Source of the DNA: Phytoseiulus persimilis
Taxonomy: Eukaryota > Arthropoda > Arachnida > Mesostigmata > Phytoseiidae
Direction: 5' to 3'
Assembly (NCBI GenBank): GCA_037576195.1
Contig: CM075102.1
Span: 13,946,745-14,010,744, forward strand
DNA: 64,000 nucleotides
Both the position numbers and the translations under genes were made by a program. Of the stretch, positions 45,401 through 64,000 are shown one piece after another. Each line of letters begins with the position of its first letter. Positions within the stretch are counted from its first letter, which is position 1. The notes under the pieces were generated by a model. It was not told the origin of the DNA. It did no database searches and was given only the letters and a program-made list of their open reading frames with translations.

Positions 45401-48400
45401 CGGAGGAGCTTCGGATGCAAGGCGCAGCGCGTCACCTTCTCCCTCAGTAATCTTTGACTTTTTTTGCAGGTACGAACAAACTTCAAGTCACATCGGTGTG
45501 CTCTCGTCGCCTCGGAGCCGAACAGAGTTACGGTTATCTGATGTCGCCCGGTTACCCGGAGTTCTACTACGTCGATGCGAAACACAGTCAGAAGTGTAAT
45601 TGGACCATACAAGGCAGACAGGGTCAGACTGTGACGGTCAACGTGCTTGACGTGCGCCTAAGACCCACTTTGAGGAGGAGCCATAATCACATCGCTTCTG
45701 AGGTTCGTAGACCGACGCGAATCGCCTGCCGGGTCCGTTCTCGAAATCGTTCCTGCCTTCAGCTCGCCTCTTTCGTGCTGTTCCTTTTGACCGGAATGAG
45801 AAACCGTTTGATCTGCTCCTGTCCCAGCGACCTGATTGTATCATCGGGAATACTCAGAGCGATCGAGCGCTCGAAAGCTTCGTTGCGTCGGGATATGCGC
45901 GCACGTTTGCAGCTACCGCGTCAGCGCATGCGTTCTGTTTGTTTAGCAACGACCCGAGTCTCCAGTGTCAGCAGTGTCTTCACTGCCAGCTTTTCATTCG
46001 TGAGTTTCGTCCTCGTGCCACGGATTCTCACTCCGTGGCGAGCGCTGTTGGCGCTCTCCGGCTTGATCGAGCTCGATGAGCCGTTTCGCATTCCGCGAAT
46101 GACGTTCTCCGTGCGGAGCTCCTTGCGACCCAGTTCGCGAGCGATGAAACTTCGGAGAATGTCGCGTTTCTCTCTGTCCGTGTGAGCAGACTCGGAGAGA
46201 TTAATTTGACTGTTTACGCTCTCGGGGCCGACTTTTAGAGTCGACTGAACGTTGCGCGGTTCACTTGTTCCAATGGGCACGCGTTTTCTTTCTCAATTCA
46301 TCCGCTTCTTCCAAAGCGACTTCGAGCTTGAGGATCAGTCAACACTGCGCTACGGACAGTAGTTTTGCGTGCTCTCCTCGATCGTCCTGGAGCGAGAGTT
46401 CACGCTCTCTTATTCCGAAAAAATGATTCAGTGAGTTCCCAAACGTCGTTTCCAAGGGCTTCGGGAGCCGAGCGGACAGGCGGACGGCTAGCCTGGTGTC
46501 GAGCTGTCTGTCAAAGCATTCTTCACGATCAGTCCTCGTCAAGAACTGGATTCATGTCTCCCTCGGATGTCCTTAATGCATTAATCCGGCCTCAGGGCTC
46601 CGGAGAGAATTATTTCCAACGGTCACCAGTCGCTCGTCACGCCATCCTCGAAGCTCATTCTTCGTGGACCCATCCGACACGAGCTCAGGTCTCGTTTTAC
46701 GCGGCGGGAGTTCCTCCTTGGCGATATCGGCGCCCGGATATTTCCCTATCCCTGCTCCCTCTCCGTGACCGTGATCTCGGGTGGATATCGAATCGACTAG
46801 AACGAAAAGTCGTTCCGACATCTGAGGGAATACGTTCGAGCTGTCTTATCAACAGCGGAGACTTCGCGCTCCAGAGTACACCGTTGCGGAGCTGCTAGAG
46901 TCCCTCACAGAGGGCGCCACAGGGTTCGATGATGCCGTCCTGTTTCTTTTGCCGCTCGAGCGACCCAACTCGGGGAAGCAAACCTTCCATCCCGCACGAA
47001 GCCTCGGAAACGTTCTTCTCGGTATTTTCTCGGGCGCAACTGATCATTCAGAGACCGTGAGTGGAAGGCAGTTAAAGGAATTCAGCTTTTTCCGCCCGAT
47101 CGTTGGCGTTAGACGTGATGATCTTCATCGCACCGCACCCTCAGCTGATGATGCTGTGTTCTCTGACGGCAATTTCTGATCAAAGTGTGGAAGCGCTCTC
47201 AGGAATCCACCTCAGAGGTATCGCGCGGACCCTTCCGCTCATCGCGTAATCCGACTCGTTTCTAATCCGCCATCTGGTTACGCGCGATACGGGTGTGTTC
47301 TCATGCCGGATAACCCCTTGCTTGCCATAAATGGATAGAATACTGGCAACGAGTAGGCAAAAATCGCGACCAGACTTTGCTGAAACAGCGCTCTCGTTCA
47401 GCGAGTGAAGCATGTTTTGCTTTCAACAGCGTCTCAGAGTGACCCTTCTTCTTCTTCTATAGTGGGCCCCTGTTCTTTGACTGCTTCTTGTCGTATCGGT
47501 CACCCGAATCGTCAGGCGGCCGGCTGTCCTCCTCTTCAAAGCAATCTTCCTTCTCACAATTTTCGAATTGAAACCAACGGAACCCGCTTGCTTCATCAGT
47601 CCGAGATTGACTTGATACTCGTTTTCCACAGGAGTGCGGCGATCTCCTCCGGTTGACGTCCGGAGATCATAGTGGATCACTTCTAGCCGACATCTGCAGC
47701 GATCAGCAACGCTACTTCCTAAATACGTTCTCCAGTGCCAATTCCATCTCTGTACAGTTCATCTCATCGGGCTTTGCGCCGCAAAGAGGTTTCATCCTAG
47801 AGTACAAAAGTGAGTGGCCCGTCGAGCCGTTCGTTTTCCTCGATCCAGAAAGTCTGCCCTATTGGTTTGATAATCGTCGCCGAAAGTCATTCATTGCCCA
47901 ATATCGCTGATACCGGCATTGATTCCTCCCGGCACCAGCTCTACAGAAGCCGAACCTCCGGAAAGATATTGGTCCGGACACCCGAATGCTCGGAACAACC
48001 GCCCGATGCGAAACAGGGAATTATTTCGGGAGTCCCGGTGTTCCATCGCTCCTCAGACATTGAAGTCATGTCAGAATTCTAGAGCTTGAGCGAGAAGAGC
48101 ATCGCCCAGGTTTAAAAATTCCTTAGAGCTTGCTCCTTCAGCTTCGAAATCGACGGAGCTCTAGCTTTGTAGACATCGAGCTGGTGAAAAAAAAACTTGG
48201 AGATCCTCGTTCGTCTCAGAACAAGCCATTCTCGGCAGATATATCGTCGTTATAGCGGGATTTCGAAAAGAGCCTGCCCGAAAATAGAAGTAATCCCGTA
48301 ATTCGATACCGTCTGAGACCGGCATTCGACTCGCGGTTGCCTCTGACCCATGTCGAACTCCTCCCCGCGGACGATCCATGAATAACCGATAACGCTCCAC

Positions 48401-49297
48401 ATTTTTTTTCGACAGTCTCGGGTTGCCCTACCCTTCCAGAGCCAGTCCAGGGTTTTCTGGAATCTCGAAACACATCAGCGGCAACCTATCGCTGCCGGCA
48501 GGATTTCTACTTCACCGATACCCTCTCTCATCACAAGACATTACTCTGCCTGAACGGCACCCGTTGGGACAGACCTTTGGGAACGTGTCTTTGTGAGTAC
48601 CTCTCGAGTTTTTGTGGGAAGAATTCAGGAAAGGAGAGCGGTGTGTAGTGTTACAGTATCGAAAGTGCTCGCCTCGAGCTGTTATCTCGAATCGTGACCG
48701 CTGGATTTGCCTGCTAGAGAGAAGGGATTACGGCGGATCGAACTTTTGGAGGTCCCGAAGAGAGTTCCGACGCTCGGTTGTGGCTGGCGACCAGCTCCAT
48801 AACGATCTCCTTCGGCGCTTCAGCTCCACAACAGTCTGCGCTCGGATTTTCGAGAAGAATTCGAGGAGGGAGTAGCGAACGCCATCGGATCCCAGGACTT
48901 CTCTCAATTGACGGAAATATTTCTCGTTTCAGCAACGTACGAACTTGCCTATAAGGGCAAGTTGATTCTCGGCTCTGGACGACCCGGCTACTCCCAGGAG
49001 CCGTCAAACACCATCGAGGACAACGACGACTTGCCTCGGGCGATAACTTCCAACACCAACCGAGAAGCGAAATCTAGTCTGAACCTTTCATCCCTGACGC
49101 GCACCATGTCGGAGTACGCGGACGTTATCATTCCTTCGATCATCGTGGGGCTACTCATTGTCGGCAACATGCTGATCGTTCTCTATATTTATCGACTGAG
49201 GAGACAAAATAAGCAGCGCATCTGTGCACGAACTCCCATTGAGCTTCCCCTGAAGGACAGAGACGAGCTAAAAATCGCTCCGCTCGCCACTATCTGA
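27482..49297 (+). CDS. SUEL-lectin / CUB / sushi single-pass membrane protein
   Basis: Six exons join in phase: 27482-27704, 36892-37013, 45470-45702, 47632-47809, 48416-48592 and 48933-49297, with the signal-peptide exon 22862-23096 probably first (total about 484 residues). The first two encode an SUEL/galactose-binding-lectin fold (starts VTTC, DVRLHC; second half CSGQHSC ... HVAYRCVAF). The next two encode a CUB domain (SPGYPEFY, CNWTIQG, then ECGDLLRL ... FILEYK). The fifth is a sushi/CCP domain (GCPTLPEPVQG ... CLNGTRWDRPLGTCL). The last gives a linker, a transmembrane helix (IIPSIIVGLLIVGNMLIVLY) and a tail of about 35 residues. Type I topology with extracellular carbohydrate- or protein-binding modules suggests a cell-surface adhesion or receptor-clustering role, as for CUB and sushi proteins at worm synapses (LEV-10, LEV-9); that is inference. 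The CUB donor at 45702 is the least certain splice; an alternative in the same phase lies at CTTGAC|GTGCGC. I do not know an established name. Confidence 0.8.
27705..36891 (+). other. Intron within the lectin domain (9.2 kb)
   Basis: It splits the SUEL domain between its two halves in phase 2. No nested gene is certain. It holds a TATA-preceded 71-codon ORF at 30671-30886 (+), a minus-strand 117-codon ORF at 30947-31300 with a transposase-like helix-turn-helix flavour, and a run of A at about 34133-34143. Confidence 0.7.
30610..30886 (+). CDS. Candidate small nested gene with TATA box
   Basis: TATAAAG at 30610-30616 stands 61 bases before an ATG at 30671 with an A-rich leader (CAAAAACAAATG), a good arthropod initiation context. 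The ORF has 71 codons, is basic and has no recognised domain. The spacing fits a TATA promoter with a short leader. There is no clear AATAAA nearby, and the peptide composition does not prove coding, so this may be chance. It would lie inside the large intron of the receptor gene, on the same strand. Confidence 0.15.
37014..45469 (+). other. Intron between lectin and CUB domains (8.5 kb)
   Basis: I see no gene in it. It contains G runs at 42310-42321 and 45196-45205. Several ORFs of 100-200 codons (for example 38754-39329 and 43291-43902 on +) show no domain, no splice partner and a Ser/Arg-rich composition typical of chance frames here. Confidence 0.7.
45703..47631 (+). other. Intron within the CUB domain (1.9 kb)
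   Basis: It separates the two halves of the CUB domain in phase 0. The CUB frame stays open by chance to 46185, so the exon end is set by the GAG|GTTCGT donor and by the domain resuming at ECGDLLRL after 47631. Nothing else recognisable. Confidence 0.65.
47810..48415 (+). other. Intron between CUB and sushi exons
   Basis: 606 bases with an AAAA|GTGAGT donor and a T-rich acceptor ending GACAG, phase 1. No other feature seen. Confidence 0.8.
48593..48932 (+). other. Last intron of the receptor gene
   Basis: 340 bases from GTGAGT to CTCGTTTCAG, phase 1, between the sushi exon and the transmembrane exon. No other feature seen. Confidence 0.8.
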
Positions 49298-49993: not shown

Positions 49994-51709
49994 TCATCGA
50001 GAACAGTTCTCATTGGATTCGCCACGAATGTCTTGGCGCAGCTTCGCAATAACCTTCAGATCTTCTTTGAGGATATCGACCAGTGCCGTGAAACCTGAGG
50101 GGATCACTCTTCGTGAGATTCTCAGTCCTGGATGATCAGCATGAAATCCTCCGATAGCCCGAGTTGTTGGATTGAATTGGGACCTTTTTGATGCTCTTCG
50201 AAAAGTTCCGTGATATGCGGCAAATCCGCCAAGCTGATCTCTGGCAGCTCGGGATTGAAAGCGTCAAGTGTTCTTGACTTGTAAACGATGTTCTGGACTT
50301 CCCGCAGCCTACCTTTGCTGAGGCCTTCGATATCCTCGAGGAGACCCAACAACGAGCTCTGTCGGCGTGAATAGGATTGCCAAGATGAATGATCAGTCCA
50401 TTTGAAACCAGGTTCATGTGGTTGAGCATGATATATGTCACCTCCAGAGAAGTTTCGTATGGTTTCCTCTCAGTTCCACTCAGCCTATGCCGCTCGTAAA
50501 CGCCCATGACTCTTAGGATGCGATGTGCGATATGGCGCTGATCGATTGCGAATTGATCGAGTCGGATTTTCGCTAGATCATGGCGTTTCTCCAAGAGATC
50601 GATGCCGGCGGCCATGGCGGCCAGCCTCGCTTTCTGTCGCTCTTGGAAGTCACATTGACAGTTCAACCTGCAATATCGATCTTGTATCTTGAGCTTTCGT
50701 CTCGAGTCGAGAAACTATGGCCCGAATTAGAGTCGACCCATGAACAAAGATCTCGAGGAAACTCAATCTAGGGTCTTTCGAGAGAAGAACCTTCGATCGA
50801 GACTCTCAAATCCTATGAGCTGCACGGGAACCAAACTGGACGGATCTGGGTTGTCTGATTTCGCTAATTGCCAACTTTTGGCGTCGACTCCTGGGGGAGG
50901 GTTCGCCAAGTATTGCTCGATGTGACGCTGAAAATGAAAAATGCGCCACGTCGATCAAGCGAGTTGAGAACCTGTGTGGGGTGGGCATGGAATCGACAGT
51001 AGAATTCTCGGTAGTTCTCAAGGTCACCTTGTCAGGCTCCACGACTTCGACGAGGTCTACGACCCCAATATTGCTGAGGGCTGCTCTGCACTCGGGATTG
51101 TCCAGAGCGCTCTTCAGCTCTTGCGATTTCCAACGTCGTTCTCCACCAGCGAGGGTCTTTCCGATCACGTAAATGATCAACTGAGTTTGGTCTCTTCCCA
51201 TGTCGTTCATCGATTCGACAGCAATTGATATATTTTCCGACTTGATGACTTCTTTGTGCAACAGTTCCGTGAACGTTGGGACCGATTCTTGGACATCTTT
51301 GATATTCTTGTTTATGAGAAGACAGACGAGGCCCTCCTCAGAAGGATGTGAGGGCAGCCTGTTATAACTGAAAGCCTGGAGTATCGAATTGTTGTCGTAT
51401 GGGGGGAAAAATTCGGAGTGATATCGCAAGCATTTCATTGAAGCGGGATTCTCCGTGATTTGGTTCGAGCTAATAAGAATGTCGAATTTCGGAAGTATTG
51501 CTCGTGGCATTAGCAGAACCTACTCTGAAGAGGTAATACGGGTTGTCAGAAGTGGAGATGGGCGTTCCGTCTGAGCTCGCTGGAGTTACAGCCGTGATCC
51601 CGCATTGGACTTGGAGCATGCGGAACGAAGCGATGACGGCATCCCTATACTTTAAACGCTCGATGGGCTCGGTAATATCATCAGATACCTCCATCGCCAC
51701 AGTGCTCAT
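49994..51709 (-). CDS. FG-less Nup54 paralog (nucleoporin-like)
   Basis: Six exons on the minus strand: 51524-51709, 51028-51375, 50791-50927, 50442-50667, 50184-50358 and 49994-50094, giving 390 residues from an ATG in good context (CGCACCATGA). All intron phases match Nup54 next door, and the 348-, 137- and 226-nt exons have identical lengths in the two genes. By eye the 116-residue exon 3 is about 47% identical with no gap (shared EEGLVCLLINK, DMG..QTQ). The conserved YLANPPPG.DA, DNPDPS and C-FQERQKARL segments are present, as is the C-terminal coiled coil ending FTALVDILKEDLKVIAKLR. The FG-repeat domain is absent: the ATG lies just before the region equivalent to Nup54 exon 2. Coding frame and splice sites are intact, so it is probably expressed. 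It could assemble with Nup62/Nup58 partners without adding FG repeats (inference). Confidence 0.85.
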
Positions 51710-53718: not shown

Positions 53719-56172
53719 TCAAACTTCGGGATTCGACAGCGCTTTTGCGATTTCATCGAGTTTTTTCGAATCATCCTGTATCAGGGTGATCAACGTCAGC
53801 AGACCTGTAAGGAATAATAGTTTTCATCACTCGAGATTTCCGAGGGGGGTCCAATGAACGAAATACGTTCTCGTTCCATGGATGCATGATTCAACTCATG
53901 AACGCACCTCTCTGCTTCTCTTGAACCAGCTGGAGCATGTCTTCCGAGAACGGCTCTTCTGCGTGAGTTGTGCCGTTTGTCTCTGCCTTCGGTGTTGATT
54001 TGACGGCCACTCGTAACTCATTCAACTTGCCAGTGTTCAGGATCTCGATTTCTCGGAGTATCTCCTCCAACGAAGCCTGGGATTGACAAGACATTTGACT
54101 CGAGTCTCTGGATGCATCCCACAATTGAATCCTGACAGCTCAACCCGTGAAATCCTTGCAAGCTCTTCCGGAGCCACCTAGGCTTACCTTGAGTGTTTCT
54201 TCCTCGCTTTGAATCCCGAATCCCATTTTCCGGTTGACTTCGAACGCGGCCATTATTTTGAGGATACGATGGGCAATATTGTGTTGCTTCTCACGTAGTT
54301 CTTCGACTCGCCCCTTAGAAAACTCGCATTTCTTCTCGAGTTCGGCTGCCTCTTCCGCCATTTTTTCCAGACGAGCTTTCTGTCGTTCCTGATAATCACA
54401 TTGGAATTTCATCCTGGGAATATCGAGAATCCATATTAGTGGAGGTGGTTCGTTGAGAGGAGACCAACCAGGTGCGACCAGGGTTTCGATCGGGCTTTCA
54501 TCCATGGGATGGTGAACTCTCGCTCTCCAGCGAATACCACCAAGACGCCTTCAGGACTAACTAACTTCCCACTGGGACGGTTTGGGTCGTATGAATTGAT
54601 ATATATCGGGCGTATCTGCGAGAATCGCCGAAAATATGATGAAATTGAAAAGTCTATCAATCATCGAACCCGCATCATACCTTCGACTCAAGTCGTCGAA
54701 ACCGATTAGGGGAACCGGAATGAGTTTTGAGGGGTCGGGATTATCTGCTTTGGCTTGTTCCCAAAGAAGAGCATCGATGCCTGGTGGAGGGTTCGCAAGA
54801 TACTGTTCCACAGCGTTCTAGAAAAAAGAAACACCTCAATGAACTACGCAGAATTCGCGCAGCTTCAGTTAGGAATGGCGTTGACATTCAGCTCAAGAGC
54901 ACTAACCTTACTGATCTCCGTCATTTCTGTCATGTTAACGACACCCAAGTTGCCCAGAGCGGTCTTGCAGCCGGGCTGCTCGAAAGCATTCATGAGCTCG
55001 GCAGAGGTGAACTTCTTCCCAGTGCCCGTGGGACTCTTCTCGTAGACATAGACAACGACTTGCGTCTGATTGTTACCCATGTCGTGTATAGAGTCGAGGA
55101 ACACTGAGATATTCGGGCATTTGATCACATCTCGATGCAACACTTCCGTGAACGATGGTGATGCGTTCTTCACTTCATCGATGCGCTTGTTGATTAATAA
55201 ACAAACCAATCCCTCCTCCGGTCGGTAGGTAGGCAGTGCGTTGTAGCCGATGGTCTGCGGAGAGCTAAGTGTCAGAAACACGGAATTCATCAGAGCGCGT
55301 GCTCGAAGCAAATAGGAACTCCCGTCAAAGTATACGGACGGACCCTCCATAAGGAAATTTCTCTACTCTAGCTTTCTGTTGAGCTGATTCAGGACGCTCA
55401 CTCTGAATTTGCAGAATGGATTGTCGGGCGTGAAATTCACTGGAGGTCCAGACTGGGCGTGGAAACCTTTGCCGACTCCCCACTTCGCTTGGAGCTGGTT
55501 GAAAGTCGCTAGGATCTTATCACGTTCGTCGTGGTAAATCATGGGCACGGTGACCGCAGTAGCAATTAGTGTGGCATCGTGAATAGCTTGTTGAGATTGC
55601 TGTTGAGCTCCACCTATTCCCGCCGCTGGAACCAGAATCGAGGTTAGACCCGGATCCCCGCATCTGACGTCTTCGAAAATACAAAAGTTCAACTAACCCT
55701 GTGGCGCTGCAGTTTGTGCGAAGGAGAACGCTGTGGTGGGTTTATTAGTGAATGAGAACTGCGATCCAAAATTTGATCCAAACCCTGTGTTCGCAGTCGC
55801 CCCGAAAGCTGAACCCGAGGTCCCGAAACCTGTACCAAAACCGGTTCCGGTGGTACTCCCGAAAGCACTGCCCGTTCCTGCGGTCGTCGTGCCGAATCCA
55901 GTCGTAGTTCCGAACCCAGCCGTTGGGGCTGAACTGGTAGCACCGAAACCCGTCGACCCGAAGCCAGTGGTTCCTGTCGTACCGAAACCGGTACTTCCTG
56001 TCGTTCCGAATCCGATGGTCCCGGTTGTTCCGAAACCTGAGGTTGCCGGCGCACCGAATCCGGTGGTCCCAGTTGCTCCAAAAGCTGAAGTCGACGCGTT
56101 ACCGAATCCTGTGTTCCACGAGCCTCCGAAACCCGTGGTCGCTGGAGTGCCGAAACCTGTTGCACCAGCCAT
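53719..56172 (-). CDS. Nup54: Nuclear pore complex protein Nup54
   Basis: Seven exons: 55698-56172, 55402-55625, 54907-55254, 54681-54817, 54188-54413, 53908-54076 and 53719-53804, about 554 residues; human NUP54 has 507. Residues 1-160 are an FG domain built from TTGFG, ATGFG and similar units. Exon 2 carries the family's DERDKIL..FNQLQAKWG.GKG and NPFCKFR segments. Later come EEGLVCLLIN, YLANPPPGIDALLWEQAK.DNPD and IPVPLIGFDDL, followed by coiled coils ending LITLIQDDSKKLDEIAKAL, equivalent to the human C-terminus. Nup54 joins Nup62 and Nup58 in the central channel and forms part of the permeability barrier. The start is uncertain: 56172 is the first in-frame ATG, but the frame is open further upstream and a possible acceptor (GATCAACAG) before 56194 allows a short extra 5' exon. 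Confidence 0.93.
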
Positions 56173-56798
56173 ACCGAACCCCGTGGTGACCAAATGCTGT
56201 TGATCCAGTCGAGCCGAAACGCGATGTGAACAAAAACCAAAACAAGCTGGAGCCCTATGGCGCGAACTTCAAATTCATGGACGGCTCAGCTTGCGATCCT
56301 TCTCATGACTCTTAATCTGGGTATTCTGCTTCGAATCAGGAGTCAATCGAAAACGCGAGCCCAAGAAAGCAATCTTTCCTGGTGTTCAGGATCCCTGATC
56401 CTGTCGGAGCGCAGTTGAATCCGGAATTGAGGTCCGTGTTCGAGCCACGCGGTATATGCTGACCCCCAGGAAACTGATGAAGCTTTTTTGCTTGCGGTCT
56501 CTGCAAGCACCGCGCCGAAGAATGGGAGTTCAACATGGCAGCTGTCTCGCGCGATGTCCCGTGAGAATCTGAGGGCATCTTGAGCTCGTTGGCGTCGAGG
56601 ATTCTCAAATTCCGTTGCGGGGGAGGGGGACACGTTGCGATCTACGGACCAGATCCACGACGCTCCAGAGGCGACTCAGTTCTTTGCAGCAACCGACAGC
56701 AGCTGATTCAACTCGTGTTGTGGTCAAGAAAATCTCAGCTGTAATTAGGGGACAGCCCTGTTGTGAGCATTGGGGTAATCCAACTGCAAGCACCAAAA
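56173..56798. promoter_or_regulatory. Shared divergent promoter region of Nup54 and eIF2B epsilon
   Basis: About 0.6 kb separates the two start codons, which point away from each other. I see no TATA box. It may hold both promoters and a short first exon of Nup54. Two small ORFs in it show no domain. Confidence 0.5.
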
Positions 56799-59700
56799 AT
56801 GGCTCCTAGAGACAAAGCTGAAATAAAGGCCAAGGAGGTTCTGCAGGCCGTGATTCTGGCCGAAACTTTCAGTCCGAAATTTCAGCCTCTGACCGACTTG
56901 ATGCCTTTTGTAAGTATAATGTGGTCGGACAACCTCACATCGCAGGCCGATTTCGCCCTGATCTACTGCAATGTACTAGGACGGCGAACGAGTTCTCTGG
57001 CGCCTGACGGAATCGCGAGACAGTATGGGCATGTGAGCTGTGTATCATTCGAACGGTTGCAACAGTAGCTTGCTTACGTCACTTTTGAACGAGTCGTGAG
57101 GTGGATATCTCTTCGCGTAGCCGTGGGCCTCTGAGCACTTAATGCGAGGACCTCGTTTGGATCGCGAAGTTTCAGTCCTTCATTGAGGTTTTTGGTTGCA
57201 GGCTTTGTTGCCACTACTGGGGAGACCGCTGCTCGATTACAACCTGGATTTATTGTACTCGAACGGTTTCCAGGAGGTTTATATATTCTGTCATAGTCGG
57301 AATGCCAGTCGCATCAAGGACTTCGTCAAGTGAGTAGATCTTCCGAGCTGGGAATCGCCTCTTCCTGTCAGTTGACACATACCTTCCGGTCCAGTCCTCC
57401 ATTTCTGCCGAACAGTCTGTAAAACATCAAAGAGTGATCATATTCATCGTACTTTCAGGAGTTCAAAATGGTCGTCGTTTGCATCCTCTCGGTTCATGGT
57501 GAACGTCATCTCGGCTGAAAACTACGTTGCACAAGGAGACATGATCCGTGATCTCGACGGCAAAGCTTACATCAGAGAGGATTTCCTCCTCATCGAAGCA
57601 GGTGTTATCACCAACACTGATCTGAGGCAACTGATGGGGGTAAGTGCTTTCCTGTTCGTCTCTCAGGGGTGATCCCACATGTGCTGGATCTGGAAGTTCG
57701 GGAGCGGTACCAAGTGCTGGATGCAGATTTATTGTGGGAGCTCCGAGCTTGATCCTGAACCAGACTGACTGTAGATTCGGATCGTGATCTTCTAGGCACA
57801 CAAGAGCAATCAAATCGTTTCGAACGACAAGAACCTTATGACGATCACTGTCAGGAAAATGGCGCCGACCCATCTCACTCGATCTAGAGACGAACATTTC
57901 GCTCTGGTGCTCGACCCCTCGCACAAGATCCTCTATGCCCACTTCAACGAGCACCACAACAAGAACATGACGATACCTATGAAGGTAACGAAAACTTCAT
58001 TCATTTGCCCCACTGCCGCATCGACCTCCGCGTATGTTCTTATTCCCACGGAGAACGTGAAGACTCAGTGAGATTTCATTTTCAGTACCTAACAAATGGC
58101 CGTGTCTCCATCAGAGCTGATCTGGCGCAGACAAAACTGGTGTTCTGCAGTAAACATGTCCCAGCCATCTTCTCAGACAATTTCGACTACCAGCACACGA
58201 ATGATTTTGTTAAAGGTGAGGACGCGGACAGCTGGAACAGGCTTCGCGACATGACCGGGGCCAACATTGAACGGTTCCATCGTCTGATTTCTCCTCCAAC
58301 CATAGAAAATTTCCGAGAGCGCTTGGTTCTTCTCGCAAGTACATCTCAAACGCGTGCTCCTGGGCCAAACTCGACCCAAAACCATGTATTGCCCCAAGTT
58401 CAGTCGAATTGCAATGGCGATTACTCCGATACGATGTGCCCGGAATCACGCAGACCAGAACTGGGACAGGAATCTTGTCCCTGCAAAATCTGATGGGAGG
58501 CGGTATTAACCCGCACATCAATCAAACTTACCGCCGGTTGGCCCCGCGTAGATTAAATTCTGAGGCCACGAATGTCGATATCATTCATAAGCTCACAGAG
58601 TGGGATATCGCTTGAATTCAGGTATCATCGAGCACGAAGACATCATGGGGAACTCAATCTACATCCATGAAGTAGCCGACTCATATGCGGCCTGCATCAC
58701 GAACATGACGTTGTACAGCAGAATCGCAATCGACGTTGCCAAAAGATGGGTGAGTCTCTTCCGGCTGAATTCCCGCCGTGGTACATCCTCGACAACTTGA
58801 GAACCACGATTAATCGCACCCTTCGTACCTGGGACTTGACACTGTTCTTCCGACCAAACTTTCCAGACGTATCCGTACACGGTCGAGATGTATTTCCGAG
58901 ACTGCCAGCTACAGCGTGGAGGGTACTACGTGTCGACAGCCGGCCGCGTTCACCCCTCCGCCAACGTCGGACAGTTTTCGGTGGTTCTCGGTCAAGTCGC
59001 CGAGGGAGCTCGAGTGACGAGATCATTCATCGGGGAGGGATCGTCCGTCGGAAGAAACGCTTGTTTGGATGAGGTGACTCTCGGAAGAAATGTCACCATC
59101 GAGGAAGGCTGCAAATTGACCAAATGCTTCGTTGGCGATGATTGTGTGGTGTTCAAAGGTGAGTTCGAGGTCTGTTCTCGGCTGAAGCGTCGGGACTCGT
59201 CCTAAACTGGTAATGGAGCGGGAGAACCAGATCTCTGAACGCAGTCTCGCTTGGTTGCAGATTCGAACCTGGTGGCAGGCTGCATTCTCAGCTCCGGAGT
59301 CAAAGTTGGTCCAAATGTTGATCTCAAACAACGACGCCTGCAAAGCATGCCCCTGGAGGACGGCCTCGGAGACGATGACGTTGACGGCGTTCCTGATGCG
59401 AAGGAATTCGGAGAACGGTGTCTCGCTTTCGAATACACAGAAGACTCTGAGTCGGACGGACAAAGCGACGACAGCGATGACCTAGATTTGATCGAAGAAA
59501 GATGGGGTAACGACGACGAGAAGCTCAGTGATGGCTTCTGCTCTCAGGAAGATGAGGCTGATGATGACGAGGATATCGACGAGGATGACGAAGTCGATGG
59601 AGGTGAGTTTCGTATTCTCCTGACTGGTGTGACTCTCGCGGAAATGTCCGCCTTCGAGTTCTGCTGGCTGAGAACTTAACTCCAGAATGGAAAGTTCATT

Positions 59701-61482: not shown

Positions 61483-63006
61483 TCAGATGATTCGCCCGGA
61501 GATGTTGTGGGGCACTGATCCGTAGTCCACGGTGTCACACCCTTCCTCAGAAGCTTCACTGCCGGCCTCACAGAGCGTCTCGCTGCTGAACATCGCTTCG
61601 ATTTCTTCCAGAGTTTTGTTTTTGGTTTCGGGCACGAAGAAGTAAACGAAAACAATGCTGAGCGCGATTAGCACAGCGAGAATCGAGAACGACCACGCGT
61701 ACCCGATCGCTTTCGTGAGCCCTGGAAAGCACTTCGTGATCACGAACGCACAGAGCGAGTTAAAGGCGACGCAGAGTCCAACTCCGGCCCCGCGAGCGCG
61801 TACCGGAAGCAGCTCGCTCATTATGAGCCAAGGTATCGGCCAGAAACCGATTGAGAATCCCGCCACGAAGATCGAGAGCGACGTCGCGGGCAACCAGGTG
61901 AGCTGATCCACCAGAGGGTTGTTGCTCTCTTGCAAAACGTAGAAACCGATCAGCATGGCCATTCCGATCAGAGATATCGCGCTCGAAGTGAGCAGCAGCA
62001 CTCGACGGCCGGCGCGATCGATGAGGACCGCCGCCGGGAAGGTGAAAACAACCTGAACCGCGGCCACGATGATCGACTGCGCGGAGGCGTCCAGGCTCCC
62101 GGAAGCCGATGAGAATATCTCGCTCGTATAGAAAATCACGGCATTTATCCCACAGGCTTGTTGAGTTCCAGCCAGAATCAGCGCGATGAGCAGCGGTCGC
62201 AGAACAGCGGAAGACTTCAAGTCCGCGATCGAGAGATCGTTGCGCACGTTCTGCTTCGTGTCCAAGAGAATCTCTCGTTGAGCGTCGGCGAAGGTTGTGC
62301 GACCGAACAAATGGTAGAGGGCTTTTCGCACCATCCAATCGGGCGAGTTCTGCTTGACGAGCCACGCAGGGGATTCCGGCATGAAGACCATGGTCAGAGC
62401 AGCGCCGACCACGGGCACAAAACTCACGAACGCCAGTGGGGTGGCGCGCAACCAGCCCTTCTTGCCGAAAACGTAGGTAGCCAGAACGCCCAAGACGATA
62501 CTGAACTGGTGTCCGGTGCAATAAAGTCCACGCCGCTCGGCAGGTGTCACCTCGCTGATGTAAATCGGAATGACCATGCAGTTCATGCCGGCGCTTATTC
62601 CCAATAGGAACCTAGCGAAGTACAACATCATGATGTGATGCCTCAAGAGGATCGAAACCCATCCCCCGCTGAAGAAAAGCGTTGAGGCCAAAATCGTCCC
62701 AGCTCGTCCGCAGCGTTCGGCGAGGTGTCCTGCGAGCAAACTTCCGAACAACGCTCCCAGGGTGATGAGACTCGCGAAAAGCGAGTAGTCGATGTCCGTG
62801 AACTGTGCTTGGATCTCCTCCTGGGCCGGTGAGTTGAATCCGATCGCTGTCCCCACTGAGAACGACGCCAGGTACGCGGAGAATACCGCCGTGGCATAAC
62901 GAGGCTTCGTCGCCGTTTCGTCCATTTTCAGAACGAATGGGTTTTCGCGAACGTGCGTTTGGGCGACTGCAGAACACTCCACGAATGTTCCGTAGCTCGT
63001 TCGCAT
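61483..63006 (-). CDS. Intronless facilitated sugar transporter (SLC2/GLUT8- or Tret1-like, MFS)
   Basis: One uninterrupted frame of 507 residues with about 12 hydrophobic segments. Sugar-porter signatures appear in order: GFNSPAQEE after TM1, ERCGRAG in loop 2-3, PESPAWL in the central loop (where most members have Arg in place of Ala), QQACGINAVIFYTSEIF in TM7, DRAGRRVLLL in loop 8-9, GFWPIPWLIMSELLPVRARG in TM10, and PETKNKTLEEIE after TM12. It would carry glucose or trehalose down its gradient through the plasma or an internal membrane. Annotated start 63006 (Met1) has a weak context; Met28 at 62925 (AAAATGG) is stronger and gives 480 residues. The lack of introns beside intron-rich neighbours suggests a retrocopy or lineage-specific intron loss. 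The C-terminal tail is short and acidic (EAGSEASEEGCD). Substrate cannot be told from sequence. Confidence 0.95.
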   Translation of the reverse strand: MRTSYGTFVECSAVAQTHVRENPFVLKMDETATKPRYATAVFSAYLASFSVGTAIGFNSPAQEEIQAQFTDIDYSLFASLITLGALFGSLLAGHLAERCGRAGTILASTLFFSGGWVSILLRHHIMMLYFARFLLGISAGMNCMVIPIYISEVTPAERRGLYCTGHQFSIVLGVLATYVFGKKGWLRATPLAFVSFVPVVGAALTMVFMPESPAWLVKQNSPDWMVRKALYHLFGRTTFADAQREILLDTKQNVRNDLSIADLKSSAVLRPLLIALILAGTQQACGINAVIFYTSEIFSSASGSLDASAQSIIVAAVQVVFTFPAAVLIDRAGRRVLLLTSSAISLIGMAMLIGFYVLQESNNPLVDQLTWLPATSLSIFVAGFSIGFWPIPWLIMSELLPVRARGAGVGLCVAFNSLCAFVITKCFPGLTKAIGYAWSFSILAVLIALSIVFVYFFVPETKNKTLEEIEAMFSSETLCEAGSEASEEGCDTVDYGSVPHNISGRII

Positions 63007-64000
63007 CCATGACCACGCACTCCCGAGATTAAGTTAAACCGATGATATCGGTAAACGTCACAATCTCACGGAACGTTGGTCTGCTCCACCAAAAAATCAG
63101 AGAGAATACCTATATCTTTACAATGGGGGGAAGAGCGCAATTGATCACGATATCAAGCACACACTTCATCGGAGAAGCGCCGCACCTGCTCCAAGTATCG
63201 AAGCTCCCGCATGGGCTGGCTTTTGTTCGGAATTCCGGCGCCCCGCCAGACATCGCTAGTCATCTTGAAGGATCGAACTGAAAGGGATCAGCGCTTGGGA
63301 GCACTCACCAGCTGTTAAGAGACGCTTCGGAATCTATGTAAAGTGCCGTTTCTGAGAACTGTGCGAATCAGACGCCGGGCCACCCCGATCGTCAATTTTT
63401 TCCTTGAGCCTACTTTTCCACACCCTTTCCAGCTCCTCAGATGCTCGCGTTTGCCTCATAGAGCTACCAATGATAACGGGAATGATTGCAACACCCGCTC
63501 CGTGATCTCCTCTCAGATTCCATCTTGAGAGTATCGATGAATCGAGGTAACGCTTCCAACCGCCCTGAGACGTCAAGCAATCATGGGCATCGCCTCGAGT
63601 TGAAAAATTATCCATGCCCTATCGTTCAAGGGGAATACGTTCAGGTTGTACAGGTGAGGCTGGTGCATTCTTCACGATAAAATAGAACTCAGCAGTAATC
63701 AATAGTGTTCCTCTCACATTATCGGTTGCAATGCGCTCCACCTTAAAAACACCAATATTTCCACTATGAATGGGGGTCGAACTCTCGCGTCCAGTTTTAA
63801 TGAGCCCCTGCTTCGAAGCTCCCCGGGAGCGATTCTTTTTTACACAGAACGAGGAGTTCATCGTGTTCGAGGCACCAAGTTATTTCTTCATTTTCGCGGG
63901 TCAAGCGCGAGTGTCCAGGTTTCGTTCGGCAGCTCGTCAGGCGGGGACGGGATTCTGATTTCTTGATATCCTCCATCAGTGTTTCGCCAAATAAGGCTCA
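63007..64000. other. Right edge: promoter side of the transporter and unresolved coding-like sequence
   Basis: The first part should hold the transporter promoter. At 63797-63976 (-) an ATG opens 59 codons ending FEAGAH, and at about 63650-63790 (-) another frame reads like protein (GTLLITAEFYFIVKNA). I recognise neither. They may be exons of a gene that continues beyond the window or decayed sequence. Confidence 0.3.

Follow-up and report, generated by a model that had tools for sequence, protein, structure and literature searches.

Known Nuclear-Transport Duplicates and the Present Locus

NUP62CL, the mammalian Nup62 C-terminal-like protein, is a channel-nucleoporin paralog that has kept the C-terminal part of its parent and has no FG repeats. 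Duplicates are also described among the nuclear-transport genes of Drosophila, and include Nup93-like (CG7262), an old DNA-level duplicate with a dN/dS of 0.08 and moderately high testis expression, and duplicates of importin-alpha that have dropped the N-terminal IBB domain, several of which are retrogenes and several of which are testis-enriched (PMC8645118). In Tetrahymena, nucleus-specific paralogs of Nup98 and Nup214 differ in their repeat part and give compositionally distinct pores (PMC5450191). The contacts of Nup54 itself have been described in part: the alpha/beta region of the Drosophila protein contacts Nup62, its C-terminal helical domain connects with Nup58 (PMC8527774), and the binding site for the Nup62-Nup58-Nup54 trimer is the N-terminus of Nup93 (PMC11148069).

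Here we describe a Nup54 paralog, labeled ParA, which lies on the minus strand at 51709-49994 of the window, the whole stretch of 64,000 nucleotides that was analyzed (GC 0.49-0.55), taken from a 181-Mb assembly of Phytoseiulus persimilis in 127 contigs. The assembly gave 112 matches to Chitin_bind_4, the domain of arthropod cuticle proteins, in keeping with an arthropod, and none to a TTAGG telomere pattern. Taken together, the comparisons below show ParA, as far as can be judged from sequence, to be an old, intron-keeping duplicate of Nup54 without the FG exon, encoding a constrained protein of ferredoxin-like, linker and coiled-coil parts. These three parts are also those of Nup54 as represented by PF13874 and by the structures 5c3l, 5c2u, 7wkk and 5ijn, and exon lengths and phases are held in common with the Nup54 gene of the same genome, whereas the absent FG domain, a worn N-terminal segment and a longer branch set ParA apart. 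NUP62CL resembles ParA in having kept a C-terminal part and lost the FG part, but it is mammalian and derives from Nup62, not Nup54. Like ParA, Nup93-like goes back to an old duplication of a pore-protein gene at the DNA level, but it copies a scaffold nucleoporin, and domain loss is not mentioned in the part of the source drawn on here (PMC8645118). The importin-alpha duplicates likewise lack an N-terminal functional domain and keep the remainder, although their parent is a transport receptor and several of them are retrogenes (PMC8645118). The Tetrahymena paralogs also differ from one another in the repeat part, yet their repeats are changed (NIFN versus GLFG or FG) rather than lost, and this in a ciliate with two kinds of nucleus (PMC5450191).

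Gene Structure of Nup54 and ParA

The neighboring Nup54 gene runs from 56172 to 53719 on the minus strand and encodes 554 amino acids in seven exons of 475, 224, 348, 137, 226, 169 and 86 nt, separated by GT-AG introns. Exon 1 (55698-56172) carries the FG domain, with 18 of the 19 FG dipeptides of the protein; its start codon was picked by eye, and the true start may be further upstream. It is followed by exon 2 (55402-55625), exon 3 with the ferredoxin-like domain (54907-55254), exon 4 (54681-54817), exon 5 (54188-54413), exon 6 (53908-54076) and exon 7 (53719-53804, including the stop codon). Part of the FG domain is made up of a 24-nt tandem repeat (55958-56117, minus strand), and nine of its FG dipeptides lie exactly eight residues apart, from position 7 to position 71, a spacing that suggests unit-by-unit growth or homogenization of the repeats.

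ParA lies about 2 kb downstream of Nup54 on the same strand, across a gap of 2009 bases. In the gene model, six exons joined by five GT-AG introns form a single open frame of 390 amino acids. Exon 1 (51524-51709, 186 nt) contains the start codon and matches part of Nup54 exon 2, with no FG exon seen before it. Exon 2 (51028-51375, 348 nt) encodes the 116 amino acids of the ferredoxin-like alpha/beta domain, of which 55 (47%) are identical to those of Nup54 exon 3, and exon 3 (50791-50927, 137 nt) encodes a conserved linker segment with 67% identity to Nup54 exon 4. The first coiled-coil segment is encoded by exon 4 (50442-50667, 226 nt; 42% identity with Nup54 exon 5), the second by exon 5 (50184-50358, 175 nt; 25% identity with Nup54 exon 6), and the last helical segment by exon 6 (49994-50094, 101 nt including the stop codon; 21% identity with Nup54 exon 7). 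The five introns shared by the two genes have identical phases (0, 0, 2, 0, 1), and the 348-, 137- and 226-nt exons have the same length in both. An earlier note on this DNA, made from the letters alone, had claimed six intact exons, phases as in Nup54, three exons of equal length and about 47% identity over 116 residues, and all of these observations hold in the gene models.

Three other genes were noted in the window. A 516-codon open frame at 61486-63033 on the minus strand matches a sugar transporter family (PF00083, E 1.1e-84). A gene on the plus strand at 45451-49297 has an exon near 45451 with a weak CUB match (PF00431, 24.1 bits against a cut-off of 21.4); how far the gene reaches beyond it, and a putative transmembrane segment close to its end, were read by eye. 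Exons on the plus strand at 56745-58490, divergent from Nup54, were taken by eye as a candidate eIF2B subunit, and the two frames of this gene that were scanned gave no Pfam match.

Relationship of ParA to Nup54

Across the core, ParA and Nup54 are 42% identical over 368 aligned residues (blastp, E 2e-98). The Pfam Nup54 model (PF13874), with a cut-off of 30.5 bits, scores 116.9 bits on Nup54, 82.8 on ParA and 75.5 on a third gene, ParB, described below. Compared with the sequences of solved structures, ParA matched six, all of them Nup54 chains, the best being 5ijn_F (E 7.3e-43). Because the Pfam score stands so far above the cut-off and every structure match is a Nup54, the likeness of ParA to Nup54 is not due to chance. 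ParA residues 20-322 align to residues 20-324 of 5c3l_A, the 333-residue frog chain that we take to be the FG-less Nup54 of a Nup62-Nup58-Nup54 trimer structure. By alignment, this chain starts at about residue 135-140 of a longer frog chain, 7wkk_G (535 residues), and the part of 7wkk_G that precedes this start is presumably the FG domain.

FG dipeptides number 19 in Nup54, two in ParB and none in ParA. The two in ParB are at residues 57 and 59, inside the core; neither paralog as modeled has the FG-repeat domain of the barrier-forming FG nucleoporins.

The Assembly Region

An AlphaFold2 model of the 348-nt exon of ParA, built from a two-sequence alignment, reached a mean pLDDT of 76, and its best Foldseek match was 5c2u_A, the Nup54 ferredoxin-like domain (TM 0.82). 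Next came chains from two human pore entries, 7r5k and 5ijn, both of which contain Nup54. Thirteen matches had an E-value of 0.001 or better, and after these first three from Nup54-bearing entries came nine chains of cadherin-23 or protocadherin-15 (E 5.7e-07 and up) and one bacterial ferredoxin-like protein. The predicted fold of ParA exon 2 is thus that of the ferredoxin-like domain in Nup54. The corresponding part of ParB matches 5c2u_A in sequence (E 4.9e-12).

In both ParA and ParB, the C-terminal coiled coils have hydrophobic residues at core positions. Judging these positions by alignment columns rather than by heptads from a structure, we found that coiled-coil columns hydrophobic in both frog Nup54 and the Nup54 of the same genome are hydrophobic in 26 of 31 cases in ParA and 23 of 31 in ParB, against 9 of 92 and 15 of 92, respectively, for columns hydrophobic in neither. 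The last two exons are poorly conserved between ParA and Nup54 (the 25% and 21% given above), and the frog protein is also just 18% and 30% identical to the P. persimilis Nup54 there. The segment that follows the FG domain is worn in ParA: frog and P. persimilis Nup54 share 35 of 62 residues (56%), while ParA, in which it is encoded at 51524-51709, shares 21 of 61 (34%) with Nup54, and ParB 42%. Since this segment is worn, some contact may have been lost in ParA. Set against the known contacts with Nup62, Nup58 and Nup93, the predicted fold, the hydrophobic columns and the alignment to 5c3l_A make the assembly parts of ParA look kept and its sieve part gone.

A Third Gene and the Partner Loci

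The earlier note had presented ParA as a tandem paralog; the paralogy stands, but ParA is not alone. When the genome was searched with PF13874, a locus on another contig matched as well, and there ParB, an intact six-exon Nup54 paralog of 400 amino acids, lies on the plus strand (C1:20380730-20382420, or L005:3731-5421). Its exons are 249, 348, 137, 226, 145 and 98 nt long, with the same phases as in ParA and Nup54, and one splice acceptor, that of the 226-nt exon, was chosen with guidance from the reading frame. Protein identity by blastp is 42% between Nup54 and ParA, 36% between Nup54 and ParB and 27.5% between ParA and ParB. Genome searches with all three proteins at E-values up to 0.01 or 0.1, in which the best candidates were scored, found no Nup54 copy beyond these three loci, and the Nup54 set in the genome is Nup54, ParA and ParB.

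For Nup62, Nup58 and Nup93, the genome has one locus each above threshold, in a search that very diverged copies could escape; when the Nup62 search was extended to an E-value of 10, two further weak matches appeared (E 1.22 and 1.62), neither of which reached the cut-off. With a single locus for each partner, ParA and ParB would have to share partners.

Origin of the Copies

All five core introns are kept in both ParA and ParB, which shows duplication at the DNA level and rejects an origin as processed retrogenes. A recent tandem copy or an assembly duplicate is also rejected, given protein identities to Nup54 of 42% and 36% and third codon positions that are nearly saturated.

In 369 aligned columns, ParA and the Nup54 of its own genome share 81 residues that are absent in frog, while ParA and frog share 29 that are absent in its own Nup54; the corresponding counts for ParB are 62 and 31. 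The copies thus share more residues with their own Nup54 than with that of frog, which suggests that they arose within the animal's own lineage, with frog as the sole outgroup and a root that is not firm. In four-taxon trees with frog as the fourth taxon, all three topologies lay within 0.6 log units and none was rejected, and informative columns grouped Nup54 with ParA in 12 cases, Nup54 with ParB in 6, and ParA with ParB in 5. The ParA branch in the best tree has a length of 1.08, compared with 0.20 for Nup54.

Selective Constraint

The earlier note had read divergence with intact frames as a sign of selection and had proposed dN/dS between the genes as a check. We fitted codon models to 374 gap-free codons of Nup54, ParA and ParB. 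The three genes differ from one another at 64-70% of third positions, and omega values are rough because synonymous sites are near saturation. A one-ratio model gave an omega of 0.067, and separate ratios (0.16, 0.05 and 0.18) fit no better (2 delta lnL 2.7, 2 df). Setting omega to 1 for ParA lowers the log likelihood by 17.0 units (2 delta lnL 34.1) and is rejected, synonymous saturation applying here as well; doing so for ParB lowers it by 3.7 units (2 delta lnL 7.3), a weaker rejection, and for both copies together by 48.1. In the free-ratio fit, some branch lengths, including that of ParA, ran to their upper bound, so the rejection of omega = 1 is more trustworthy than the omega values.

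The intact frames themselves bear on the question. In a neutral simulation of substitutions only, along one branch, 0.4 substitutions per site brought identity down to about 44%, with a mean of 11.1 stops and an open frame in none of 500 runs. Both copies preferentially retain the residues that frog shares with the P. persimilis Nup54, ParA in 74 of 133 cases, versus 81 of 236 elsewhere, and ParB in 67 of 133, versus 62 of 236, a contrast that could come partly from changes in Nup54 itself. In a cleaner comparison, ParA keeps these frog-shared residues more often where ParB does (45 of 67, versus 29 of 61; five columns dropped), a marginal difference (p 0.03). A dead copy or pseudogene is rejected by the intact frames and splice sites and by the rejection of neutrality, which for ParB is only weak. 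The reading of the earlier note is thus upheld, and these tests together show purifying constraint on both ParA and ParB, more firmly on ParA.

Possible Function and Alternatives

We favor, with a probability of roughly 55%, the reading that ParA is an alternative Nup54 subunit in FG-reduced trimers of the Nup62-Nup58-Nup54 type in some cells or stages. ParA would take the place of Nup54 in the coiled-coil trimer, which would be held in the pore by Nup93, and would share Nup62 and Nup58 with the normal protein. Such trimers would have two FG arms, not three, and may form a changed or looser sieve; ParB, which has diverged further, would be another subunit of this type. We infer in this that ParA would be expressed, form trimers, be located at the pore and act in a particular tissue. 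Alternative channel trimers, use in the germ line and competition with Nup54 had been suggested in the earlier note, an interpretation that is plausible but incomplete.

Two other explanations concern what kind of gene ParA is. A distant or unassembled upstream exon might supply an FG domain, making ParA an ordinary second Nup54, and such a 5′ exon is possible by sequence because the frame of ParA exon 1 stays open beyond the chosen ATG to 51799, with no other ATG. The gap up to Nup54, however, when scanned for frames of at least 20 amino acids with at least two FG dipeptides, contained none on the coding strand and one with two FG on the opposite strand, so the remark of the earlier note that the FG part has no counterpart upstream survives the scan. 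Nor did the coding strand of the 3.7 kb before ParB contain an FG-rich frame like Nup54 exon 1, its single frame with two FG being one of 35 residues at the far end (L005:1-105), and we regard a hidden FG exon as very improbable. The copies might instead be dying or unexpressed, and only lately released from constraint, which would suit the weak rejection of omega = 1 for ParB (2 delta lnL 7.3). Yet both copies have open frames and GT-AG introns, neutral drift this far would leave about 11 stops, and for ParA omega = 1 is rejected at 2 delta lnL 34.1, all of which leaves little credence for decay.

The remaining explanations accept a constrained protein and assign it another role. ParA may have left the pore, so that its ferredoxin-like and coiled-coil parts serve another assembly and its resemblance to Nup54 is due only to constraint on the fold. 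Its worn N-terminal segment (21 of 61 residues, versus 35 of 62 between frog and P. persimilis Nup54) and its branch of 1.08 versus 0.20 for Nup54 fit such a departure, but retention of the coiled-coil hydrophobic residues (26 of 31 columns) and of the linker (67% identity) suggests the same partners, and we consider an exit from the pore rather unlikely. ParA could also be a competitor, an FG-less protein that binds Nup62 and Nup58, cuts the number of normal trimers and so regulates their dose. The lack of FG repeats, the retained assembly parts and the single locus found for each partner would all agree with this; as far as sequence goes, however, a competitor predicts the same as an alternative subunit, and one inhibitory task would need two separate FG-less copies. 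A role as dose regulator thus appears distinctly unlikely.

If ParA is an alternative subunit, where it acts can only be guessed at by analogy. The Drosophila nuclear-transport duplicates whose expression has been studied are testis-enriched (PMC8645118), and germ-line or otherwise tissue-limited expression of ParA is our guess on that account. Meiotic entry in fly spermatocytes needs the Nup62 complex, including Nup54 (PMC7072204), and channel nucleoporins have been linked to the making of piRNA (PMC10192361).

Implications

Among 30 Drosophila nucleoporins examined, only Nup93 is duplicated; the part of this survey drawn on here covers other insects only for genes duplicated in Drosophila and is silent on Nup54 in other arthropods (PMC8645118). 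By comparison with the fly, in which Nup93 is the only one, it therefore looks unusual for a channel nucleoporin to have multiplied through duplications that kept the introns. No FG-less Nup54 copy is described among the literature matches listed on Nup54 paralogs and nucleoporin duplication, as far as the portions seen of those sources go. The case is an uncommon diversification of a channel nucleoporin and not a new kind of system, as nuclear-transport duplicates that have lost a domain are already known.

The locus touches on two open questions, namely the number of FG arms required in the central channel, and whether the cells of an animal differ in the make-up of their pores. Two apparently constrained FG-less copies of Nup54 beside a normal one, with single partner loci, provide a case in which these can be tested directly. 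We think it unlikely, though worth stating, that the animal has distinct classes of pore, its central channel being tuned by exchanging Nup54 for either of the FG-less subunits. The FG-less copies would then serve cells that call for unusual permissiveness or selectivity of their pores, such as those of a germ line or early embryo, and paternal genome elimination in phytoseiid males would be a possible setting for such pores. If they exist, distinct pore classes would amount to a natural experiment on the number of FG arms that a pore requires.
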